A stretch of 34,000 bases of DNA, taken from assembly GCA_013139985.1 (NCBI GenBank), contig WSZT01000055.1:1-34000 (forward strand). Reading direction: 5' to 3'. Made by a program: the position numbers and the translations under genes. Positions within the stretch are counted from its first letter, which is position 1; each line of letters opens with the position of its first letter. This document shows, one piece after another, positions 101 through 4,079 of this stretch. Under the pieces are notes generated by a model, which ran no database searches, was not told where the DNA came from, and was given only the letters and a program-made list of their open reading frames with translations. This stretch comes from Candidatus Methanophagales archaeon. GTDB taxonomy: Archaea; Halobacteriota; Syntropharchaeia; Alkanophagales; Methanospirareceae.

Positions 101-225
101 ACCACGAGATTTCACAAGATTAACACAAGAAATTGGGATTAATAAGGAATAAAGTAGCTAGGAGTATACTGAAACTATGTTAATATTACTCTTTTTCTCG
201 TGTAAATCTGTGTACTCTCGTGGTC
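101..225. repeat. Imperfect long inverted repeat (arms about 101-132 and 191-225) directly upstream of intron copy 1
   Basis: Left arm accacgagatttcacaagattaacacaagaa matches the reverse complement of the right arm tctcgtgtaaatctgtgtactctcgtggt with a few mismatches. Confidence 0.7.
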
Positions 226-1035
226 TGTTGACAAGAAGTTGCATCACAGATTGCCTAACCGGCTACCCTATCCATTCTGGGTAATCCTACCGTGGAATGC
301 GCGGATGGCAACGCCCACGTAGTAAGCTCGCGGAACAACGTGGAAAATCTGAAAGTCCGGTTTAGATCAACTGCAGGGATAAAAAAAACACCATGAAAAG
401 CGTAAAGCGAACCATTGTAAGAGTCGTCACTTATAATAAGCGAAAACGGACTGCTACGCTTAGACCAAAAGGTACGGAATCCGATTATAATGGCTATAGT
501 GACGTTATAGTGGATGGACGAATGATTCTCGGCTTACAGATGGCTTCTAAAGTGTTTATAATTATCTGTGATCTAGAACTTGGTAAGCCCCTTAAGCTCC
601 CGGAATATCCGGGTAGAGACCCCGTGAGGCCAAACGACGGCTTATGAGGTAGAGGATTCGGTAAAAAGCGAATGACATCTTGTAATGAGCGGTATAGGGG
701 TTCAAAATTTGCCCTAACCCGAGAGGGTGCTGAGTTACCAAATTGGTGTTTCCTTGTATGCAAGGAGGCAGAATGTAAGTAGTTTAATTACGCCCTTAAA
801 AGGCGAGAGACTTACAGACATTCTGCCCAAATTCAGGTGGACTGACATCGCCTGGAAAAAGGCTGAAACACATGTTAACCGGCTGCAAACCAGAATTACA
901 AAAGCAGTTAAACCAAACTGCTGCCCGATACAGAAAGGCTTATGAAATGCTTGAGCGGTATGAAGGGAAACTTTCACTTCATGTACCATTCTGAGACGAG
1001 GAGGGGCGAGCAATCGCCCCCTTCTTAATCGGCGG
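221..1035 (+). mobile_element. Group II intron-like element, copy 1 (intron-encoded protein reduced to an N-terminal stub); boundaries approximate
   Basis: Near-identical to copy 2 along most of its length. 3' end has a domain V-like hairpin (gagcggtatgaagggaaactttcacttcatgtaccattc, 953-991) followed by a domain VI-like hairpin (ggggcga-gcaa-tcgcccc, 1003-1020). Internal domain I-like segments include gtaagccccttaagctcccgg and ggtaaaaagcgaatgacatcttgtaatg. A reverse-transcriptase N-terminal remnant lies just before domain V. Confidence 0.8.
823..945 (+). pseudogene. N-terminal remnant of group II intron RT/maturase
   Basis: Translation LPKFRWTDIAWKKAETHVNRLQTRITKAVKP resembles the usual start of intron-encoded proteins (W..IDWKKAE..V.RLQ.RI.KA). 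The RT, X and endonuclease domains are absent and domain V follows directly. Confidence 0.75.
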
Positions 1036-1358: not shown

Positions 1359-2321
1359 ATGACAGAGGCTGAAATAAAGCCAAAGGGGCCACGTGCCAGG
1401 ATCAGAGATGTAGTGAAGAAAGCGGAGCCACGAGTGGAACCAACCATTGCTGCAAAACAAGATCGAAGTATCCAAATTCAAAATATACTGCAGAACCTCA
1501 GAAAGAAAGAGAAAAGCAAAATAATAAAGTCTGCACTGTTGAAATATTATGAAGCAGAGGAACTGAAACCGTATCAGGCAGAGCTTATTAAATTACAACA
1601 TCATGTAGAAAAAACTGGGAAAAAGCTAATCATTCTTTTCGATGGCAGGGATGCATCCGGGAAAGGAGGCACTATCCGGCGGGTTACCCGGTATATGAAC
1701 GAAAAAAGGTATCGTGTGGTCGCCCTTGGCAAACCAAATGAAGATCAGGCAACTGAACTCCACATGAAGCGCTATATCGAACAGTTTCCTCATGCGGGGG
1801 AGATTGTACTGTTCGATCGAAGCTGGTATAATCGGGCAATGGTTGAACCGGTGATGGGGTTTTGTACCGGGCGTCAATATCAACAATTTATGGATAACGT
1901 GATCAGTTACGAAGAAAATTTCATCGCTGATGGAAAGACGACGCTTCTTAAATTGTATTTTTCAGTTTCTAAGGAGGAACAGGCAAGGCGATTTGAAAGG
2001 AGGAAAAACGACCCGCTACGACAGTGGAAACTCAGTGAAGTGGACTTACAGGCACAGGAATTATGGGCTGAATTTACTGAGAAAAAATTCAGATTGTTAC
2101 AAAAGACACATACAAAAACGCTGCCATGGTACATCATCCGGTCGGATGATAAACATCTGGCTCGACTGGAAACGTTTAAAACAATCCTCAGTACAGTTAG
2201 ATATATCGGCAGAAGTCGGAAGTTGGATTTTAACCGGGATCCGGAGATCGTGATCCCGGGAGATAAGGAAGTGAAGATAATGAAGAAGAGCTGGAGAAAA
2301 TATGGTAAGTACGAGTGTTGA
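1359..2321 (+). CDS. ppk2: Polyphosphate kinase 2 family protein (PPK2), paralog 1
   Basis: Walker A-like LFDGRDASGKGGTIRR and FDRSWYNRAMVEPVMGFCT motifs typical of PPK2. Confidence 0.93.
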   Translation: MTEAEIKPKGPRARIRDVVKKAEPRVEPTIAAKQDRSIQIQNILQNLRKKEKSKIIKSALLKYYEAEELKPYQAELIKLQHHVEKTGKKLIILFDGRDASGKGGTIRRVTRYMNEKRYRVVALGKPNEDQATELHMKRYIEQFPHAGEIVLFDRSWYNRAMVEPVMGFCTGRQYQQFMDNVISYEENFIADGKTTLLKLYFSVSKEEQARRFERRKNDPLRQWKLSEVDLQAQELWAEFTEKKFRLLQKTHTKTLPWYIIRSDDKHLARLETFKTILSTVRYIGRSRKLDFNRDPEIVIPGDKEVKIMKKSWRKYGKYEC

Positions 2322-2352
2322 TCGTATGGTTACATACCCAAGGGGGTAAAAG

Positions 2353-3252
2353 ATGACAACAAAAAATGACAATGAAAAATCTGAAAAAAAAGTGAAATTA
2401 GCTGAACATACTGCCATCAAGAATATGGACAAGGTGCAGGAGAAGAACCGTGTTAGCATATGGGTAAAAAGGAGTACTCTTGAATATGAAGAGGAACTGC
2501 GCAATCTGCAGACCGAACTTATAAAGGTGCAAAACCATGTCAAGTCTTGCGGACTGCGCATTCTGGTATTGTTTGAAGGACGGGATGCTGCCGGGAAAGG
2601 GGGCACGATAAAGAGATTTACCGAACATATAAATCCACGGGGTGTGCGGGTTGTGGCACTCGAAATGCCGAGCGACAGGGAACAAACCCAATGGTATTTT
2701 CAGCGATACGTCCAGCATCTCCCATCAGCAGGAGAGATAGTATTGTTTGACCGCAGCTGGTATAACCGGGCAATGGTTGAACCTGTGATGGGATTCTGCA
2801 CGGATGAGCAGAATAAACGCTTCTTAAAGGATGTTCCTCTCTTCGAACAATTGCTTGTAAAAGATGGAATTTTTTTATTCAAGTTTTATTTTTCAGTCTC
2901 TAAAGATGAACAGACAAGACGATTTGACGCAAGAAAGACCAATCCGCTGAAGCAATACAAGGTCTCCCGTGTTGATAAGATGGCACAGGAAATGTGGGAT
3001 CAGTATACAATAAAAAAGTTCCAGATGCTTAGTGAAACAAACCGAACCATTGCCCCGTGGATAATTATTCGATCCAATAACAAGAGAAAAGCAAGACTCA
3101 ACTGTATTAAATATATTCTATATAACCTGGATTACGAAGGCAAGGTTCATGAAAAAAAACTCGAGCCGGATCCGGAGATCGTGATTTCGGGCATTGATGA
3201 ACTCAAACACATGGAAGATAATCTGTTGAAACCGATTGAACTGCCGGGATGA
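2353..3252 (+). CDS. ppk2: Polyphosphate kinase 2 family protein (PPK2), paralog 2
   Basis: LFEGRDAAGKGGTIKRFTEHINPRGVRVVAL and FDRSWYNRAMVEPVMGFCT motifs; similar to the preceding ORF throughout. Confidence 0.93.
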   Translation: MTTKNDNEKSEKKVKLAEHTAIKNMDKVQEKNRVSIWVKRSTLEYEEELRNLQTELIKVQNHVKSCGLRILVLFEGRDAAGKGGTIKRFTEHINPRGVRVVALEMPSDREQTQWYFQRYVQHLPSAGEIVLFDRSWYNRAMVEPVMGFCTDEQNKRFLKDVPLFEQLLVKDGIFLFKFYFSVSKDEQTRRFDARKTNPLKQYKVSRVDKMAQEMWDQYTIKKFQMLSETNRTIAPWIIIRSNNKRKARLNCIKYILYNLDYEGKVHEKKLEPDPEIVISGIDELKHMEDNLLKPIELPG

Positions 3253-3293: not shown

Positions 3294-3354
3294 ACCACGA
3301 TTACACAAGAGTAACATCAACAGAACTCTTGTGGAAATCTGTGTAATCTCGTGG
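3294..3354. repeat. Imperfect inverted repeat directly upstream of intron copy 2
   Basis: accacgattacacaagag ... cttgtggaaatctgtgtaatctcgtggt; the reverse complement of the right arm begins accacgagattacacag, matching the left arm with a 2-nt gap. Confidence 0.7.
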
Positions 3355-4005
3355 TCTTTTGACAAGAAGCTGCATCACAGATTGCCTAACCTGCTACCCT
3401 ATCCATTCGGGGTAATCCTACCGCGGAATGCGCGGATGGCAACGCCCACGTAGTAAGCCTGCGGAACAACGTGGGAAATCTGAAAGTCCGGTTTAGATCA
3501 ACTGCAAGGATAAAAAAAACACCATGAAGAGCGTAAAGCGAACCATTGTAAGTGTCGTCACTTATAATAAGCGAAAACGGACTGCTACGCTTAGACCAAA
3601 AGGTACGCAATCAGACTATAATGGCTATAGTGACGTTATAGTGGATGGACGAACGATTCTCAGCTTACAGATGGCTTCTAAAGTGTTTATAATTATCTGC
3701 GATGTAGAACTTGGTAAGCCCCATAAGCTCCCGGAATCTCCGGGTATAGACCCTGTGAGGGAAAACGACGGCTTATGGGGTAGAGGATTTGGTAAAAAGC
3801 GAATGACCTCTTGTAATGAAAGGTATAGGGGTTCAAAATTTACCCTGACTCGAAAAGGTGCTGACTTACCAGCCGGTGTTTCATTGTATGCAAGGAGGCA
3901 AACCTGTGAATTATGAAATGCTTGAGCGGTATGAAGGGAAACTTTCACTTCATGTACCGTTCTGAGACGAGGAGGGGCGAGCAATCGCCCCATCCTTAGT
4001 CTGCT
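3351..4005 (+). mobile_element. ORF-less group II intron-like element, copy 2; boundaries approximate
   Basis: Same sequence as copy 1 but lacking the maturase stub (about 160 bp shorter). Domain V-like hairpin at 3924-3962 with a fully paired basal stem (GAGCGGTA/TACCGTTC); domain VI-like hairpin ggggcga-gcaa-tcgcccc at 3974-3991 with a candidate bulged A in tccttAgtc. Confidence 0.82.
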
Positions 4006-4079
4006 TAAAAACCCTTGGAAAATGTTAGTACCGTTCTGGCAAATTATTATTTGTGAGTCCCCCAATGGGGCAACGCAAA

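Follow-up and report, generated by a model that had tools for sequence, protein, structure and literature searches.

An ORF-less group II intron of a family that has probably multiplied in trans in Methanophagales

The window, a stretch of 34,000 nucleotides, corresponds to contig C85 in an archaeal MAG of 2.13 Mb that is 87% complete. Two related group II intron-like elements (copies 1 and 2) lie near its start, separated by two adjacent PPK2 (polyphosphate kinase 2) genes at 1359-3252. Copy 2, the subject of this study, is intergenic; its features are collected in Table 1. A dispersed repeat (about TCTTGTGGAAATCTGTGTAATCTCGTGGT) was found at 196-224 and 3327-3355 and in more than 20 places in the genome, and several introns are placed exactly at its end. 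The 3' flank of copy 2 (4005-4060) is another dispersed repeat, TTAAAAACCCTTGGAAAATGTTAGTACCGTTCTGG, which is also present on contigs C224, C158, C105 and C16.

Table 1. Intron features located in the window.
Feature	Position	Strand	Basis
Sibling copy 1, with RT N-terminal stub; junction K near 911-912	225..1033	+	
5' exon: IBS2 TGTAAT (3342-3347) and IBS1 CGTGGT (3350-3355), at end of dispersed repeat	3342..3355	+	
ORF-less group II intron copy 2, 649 nt	3356..4004	+	Rfam RF02012 and RF00029; EBS1/IBS1 register; nested empty site
5' terminal motif CTTTTGAC (family consensus YTGTTGAC; G3 lost in copy 2, U instead)	3356..3363	+	
Domain I	3363..3713	+	RNAalifold, 38 introns; closing helices 3363-3366/3710-3713 and 3370-3382/3695-3707
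Open frame of 130 aa spanning D1-D4, taken as spurious (structural RNA)	3524..3916	+	no Pfam match; columns align as paired RNA
EBS2 CTTATA	3561..3566	+	exon-intron complementarity scan, against exon -9 to -14
EBS1 ATAGTG	3627..3632	+	top match of scan, exon offset 0, against exon -1 to -6
Domain II	3718..3781	+	helix 3719-3728/3771-3780, 95.2% paired over 38 introns, 7 covarying pairs
Domain III	3782..3825	+	helix 3806-3812/3818-3824, 90.2% paired, 7 covarying pairs
Domain IV remnant, ORF-deletion junction J (GGCAAACCTGTGAA/TTATGAAATGC) at 3910/3911	3826..3917	+	compared with RT-encoding L087 and L081
Domain V, 39 nt vs usual 34: AGC triad, CTTCA insertion 3948-3952, 2-nt bulge TG 3953-3954	3924..3962	+	alignment, folds
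J5/6 and domain VI (bulged A3998, candidate branch point), 3' end TGC	3963..4004	+	13/15 D6 pairs covary, 66 introns

Copy 2 is a group II intron without a maturase. It had been predicted to be a group II-like ribozyme from its 3' end and its domain I-like helices, and the proposed Rfam search returned significant matches, not the absence of a covariance-model hit that would have spoken against an intron: RF02012 (D1-D4) scored 51.1 bits (E 6.5e-8), and RF00029 (D5/D6) scored 43.1 bits (E 2e-5), above the gathering score. For copy 1, the RF02012 score was 44.4 bits and D5/D6 fell under the gathering score. The scores of the window copies are far beyond chance. Copy 2 contains no maturase remnant, and copy 1 keeps an N-terminal stub of the reverse transcriptase (RT), as had been noted.

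The intron had been placed correctly, at 3351-4005, but with inexact ends. Base 1 is C3356, which was fixed by two independent lines, namely the empty site of a nested intron and the EBS1/IBS1 register; the 3' end is the TGC at 4002-4004, 3 nt past the D6 stem. A start at GTGGTC (3351), which resembles GUGYG, was rejected because GTGGT is part of the dispersed repeat and the exon to which EBS1 pairs has its last base at 3355. The exon-binding sites were located by a scan of all intron positions against all exon offsets for intron-specific complementarity, without prior positions, and both EBS1/IBS1 and EBS2/IBS2 pairing with the 5' exon were found family-wide. In copy 2 itself, EBS1 and EBS2 each pair at 5/6 positions, wobbles counted, and the IBS1 match is poor, with one mismatch and three wobbles.

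The fold of domains I to III was derived with RNAalifold from 38 diverse related introns. The consensus contains 136 pairs, and almost all of its helices show covariation; copy 2 keeps 126 of the pairs, compared with 130-131 in intact RT-encoding members of the family. The pairing of CCCCATAAGC with GCTTATGGGG in the original prediction proved to be a real helix; it is domain II, directly 3' of the domain I closing helix (3363-3382/3695-3713). The same columns bear on the 130-aa frame, which is open in copy 2 and could be read as a real gene whose likeness to RNA is secondary. It is extremely improbable that this is so, since a Pfam search of the frame matched no family and its columns behave over the 38 introns, distant ones included, as paired RNA, with compensatory changes and frame-breaking indels; the frame was therefore rejected as a gene.

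Domains V and VI were aligned across 66 introns, with sliding of the pairing partners as the control. In this alignment, 96.6% of cells were paired, compared with 39-52% when the partners were slid, and 21 of the 29 pairs covary with double-sided changes. Thus, conserved and covarying structure, which had been named as a test of the prediction, was found among related introns in both D1-D3 and D5/D6. The bulged A3998 lies in a covarying domain VI stem as the 7th base from the 3' end. The basal stem of domain V, GAGCGGTA/TACCGTTC, has all its bases paired in copy 2, and the equivalent stem of copy 1 carries a C-A mismatch (TACCATTC), both as predicted; the remaining sequence details given in the prediction were likewise recovered.

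What the original prediction did not mention is the 5-nt insertion CTTCA in domain V, which is common to copies 1 and 2. In the fold of copy 2, the 8-bp basal helix and the 2-nt bulge, which belongs to the active site (PMC3669008), are kept; the distal helix is 5 nt longer, and the GAAA loop is replaced. Insertions of the same length are also present in G004:C66, G004:C55 and G003:C4, which makes five copies, lying at different genomic sites, in three genomes with an insertion at this place. It could be argued from these observations, and from the UG bulge that is also present in the apparently intact relatives L180 and L215, that the insertion is tolerated as a longer distal helix and that copy 2 is still competent, splicing and moving in trans today. 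This is unlikely: the GAAA loop of domain V and G3 of the 5' motif are lost, IBS1 is poorly matched, and the RT-encoding relatives that were aligned over D5/D6 all lack the insertion. In addition, the insertion has the appearance of a tandem duplication and could have arisen more than once. Copy 2 itself is probably defective, and from the domain V insertion, the loss of G3 in copy 2 and the C-A mismatch in copy 1 we infer that both window copies are impaired.

The claim that copy 2 is the well-kept copy is accordingly weak. Copy 1 also keeps 126 of the 136 consensus pairs and, although copy 2 has its domain V stem paired and departs at fewer of the 178 conserved D1-D3 columns (2 vs 4), the insertion is present in both, so that copy 2 is only marginally better preserved. 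The contrast of a still-folded copy 2 with a decaying copy 1 is not supported, given the equal D1-D3 pairing, the common insertion and the loss of G3 from copy 2. The two copies share 93% identity in their first 550 bases and lie on the same strand, with the same dispersed repeat as 5' flank and the common domain V insertion. These features could be explained if the region of the PPK2 gene pair had undergone segmental duplication or recombination between repeats, without separate retrotransposition events. Such an origin is quite unlikely, since the 3' flanks of the two copies are unrelated, their domain IV deletions differ, and copy 2 is as close in D1-D3 to L081 and L085 of another species as to copy 1.

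Relatives of these introns were found in 12 of 59 genomes, the window genome included. Full-length members are 2.2 kb long and encode an RT with RVT_N, RVT_1 and GIIM domains; this RT is intact in the sister genomes G001 and G002, whose RT-bearing contigs match CSMAG_2415 and CSMAG_2623, respectively, Methanophagales archaea of a public collection. The family was labelled CL/IIB-like, a class judged from the RT of the relatives, because the nearest solved structure to this RT is 6me0, which we take to be the T. elongatus TeI4h RT. The whole-genome search that had been suggested revealed other copies in the window genome, about a dozen copies or fragments, but not the full-length maturase: when an intact cognate RT was sought in this 87% complete MAG, only fragments of the family RT were found assembled. 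Own-genome contigs C183/C178 and C171/C34 end inside copies; therefore, middle parts are missing from the assembly.

Nesting was observed in G001:C88 (L081) and in own-genome L041/L042 (C183, C178), where domain I of one subfamily is interrupted by a member of another at AACGCTAT/GAAGAG. In G001:C88, the filled site reads AACGCTAT/TTGTTGAC...CTGC/GAAGAG, and the empty site AACGCTATGAAGAG is present in L087. EBS1 of the intron nested in L081 pairs at 6/6 positions with this site, with one wobble. In L035 (own-genome C41) and in L081:76-1119, the YADD motif of a group II RT is the insertion site of another, different group II intron (Rfam D1D4-2 in C41). The RT halves that flank it in C41 resemble two RT classes, which points to recombination or a chimeric contig. 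Internally deleted mini-copies of ~200-440 nt that keep the 5' sequence and D5/D6 were also recorded (L043 1089-1327 on own-genome C27, L098, L100, L106 and L109).

In several species, the same domain IV deletion junctions were found at sites that are not homologous. Junction J of copy 2 is identical in G003:C35 and G030:C52 (three genomes in all), and junction K of copy 1 is identical in G022, G030 and G069 (four genomes in all); the 3' flanks of the copies inspected are unlike, except for two G069 copies with a common flank. Because its stub junction is common to three other genomes, copy 1, too, is a deletion form that has dispersed and is not merely decaying in place. In the D1-D3 tree, the copies are not grouped by junction: K occurs in three RNA subfamilies and J in unlike ones. 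A single origin of each deletion form is thus unsupported; the copies may have exchanged their 3' halves, or deletions may have recurred at the domain IV hairpin. The latter leads to a rival account, according to which copies with the same junction are independent deletions at the hairpin arms (GCAGTT...AACTGC) and do not reflect the spread of ORF-less introns. Junction K is indeed situated between these arms, other joins occur at the same hairpin in L089, L092 and L086, and the presence of K in three subfamilies would fit. This account deserves consideration but is the less probable one, as the exact join recurs, and J, with one base of choice at most, has its breakpoints outside the arms.

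Copy 2 is therefore best regarded, with a probability of about 0.7, as an ORF-less, non-autonomous copy of an IIB/CL-like family that is multiplying in Methanophagales (ANME-1 type), spread by means of the RT of its relatives and now impaired. The basis of this reading is the fold, the boundaries, the EBS elements, the common deletion junctions at unrelated sites and the RT-encoding relatives. In the proposed course of events, a deletion inside domain IV would have removed the RT, and ORF-less intron RNAs would then have spread by reverse splicing and reverse transcription with protein supplied by RT-encoding relatives. Insertion sites would be chosen by EBS1/IBS1 and EBS2/IBS2 pairing, and copy 2 would have landed at the end of a dispersed intergenic repeat. 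In the ORF-less L086, all 12 EBS1 and EBS2 positions pair with the 5' exon, and in L088 11 of 12 do so, wobbles counted, as expected for retrohoming. The prediction of an ORF-less, non-autonomous intron is thus supported, and its mobilisation in trans is likely at the level of the lineage, judging from the same junctions at unrelated sites, the RT-encoding relatives and the exon pairing of L086 and L088, but not for copy 2 in its present, probably defective state. Against the overall reading speak the RT fragments, which are all that was assembled in the MAG, the scatter of both junctions over RNA subfamilies and the poor IBS1 match of copy 2.

Copy 2 has the ends CUUUUGAC...UGC, and the family consensus is YUGUUGAC...GC; neither agrees with GUGYG...AY. 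Since exceptions to these ends are known (PMC4424553, PMC7923331), GUGYG...AY is not strictly defining, and the departure marks a variant. The end bases (3356 and 4003 in the window) were compared across 40 introns of the RT family (rows L155-L262, e.g., L087, L195, L166 and L231); they were assigned from alignment, D6 pairing and, where possible, the EBS1 register, and a small number may therefore be wrong. The first and penultimate bases were G:A in 27 introns, Y:G in 10 and other in 3. A first pyrimidine was combined with a penultimate G in 10 cases and with another base in 2, and a first G with a penultimate G in none and with another base in 28 (27 A, 1 C). Fisher's test gave p 8e-8 with kinship ignored. 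On the RT tree, each trait changes about 7 times; there were 6 supported independent contrasts, of which a mean of 5.3 were in the same direction and none was opposite (sign test median p 0.06, range 0.03-0.125). The Y1:G(-2) rule is not perfect, as L161 (C:A) and L205 (C:C) depart from it, and L251, with G1 and a penultimate C, belongs to neither type. Across the RT family, these comparisons suggest, the two bases tend to change together, and the ORF-less members may have the same Y:G ends as RT-encoding ones.

A contact between the first and penultimate bases is known from mutants, as cited in PMC4238363 (Chanfreau and Jacquier 1993). A literature search, from which subscription papers were largely out of reach, yielded no report of covariation between these bases; within the same reach, a search on group II introns of ANME-1/Methanophagales yielded no description of the copy 2 family. 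If true, the coupled change would provide evidence from nature for a boundary contact that has otherwise been recognised in mutants, and it would explain misses by boundary searches that use GUGYG...AY. According to the available text of PMC7923331, UHB.I2, a group IIB intron of a hypersaline metagenome, ends UUGCG...GU, which fits the Y1:G(-2) pattern; unlike the Methanophagales family, it is a single RT-encoding intron in an integron, and that text proposes no covariation. RmInt1 (PMC4238363) also departs from AY at the penultimate base, but it ends CC; in the Methanophagales family, the GC end goes together with a pyrimidine as the first base.

Introns that spread in trans serve as a model of the way in which such elements turned into spliceosomal introns, and this lineage of methane-oxidising type offers several deletion forms, nested copies and RT-encoding partners for study. 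In Methanosarcina acetivorans, introns nested in related introns, some of them without an ORF, were reportedly described by Dai and Zimmerly in 2003. The Methanophagales introns are likewise archaeal, inserted in related introns and in part ORF-less; they differ in belonging to another family and in being nested both at the RT YADD motif and inside domain I of the ribozyme. A close parallel is provided by the ORF-less TeI3 introns of Thermosynechococcus elongatus, whose mobility in trans was shown experimentally (PMC2882425). Both systems have domain IV ORF deletions with common breakpoints, similar RT-encoding relatives and nested twintrons. Unlike TeI3, the Methanophagales family is archaeal, is known here from sequence alone and has non-canonical ends and several deletion junctions mixed among RNA subfamilies, and copy 2 carries the domain V insertion.
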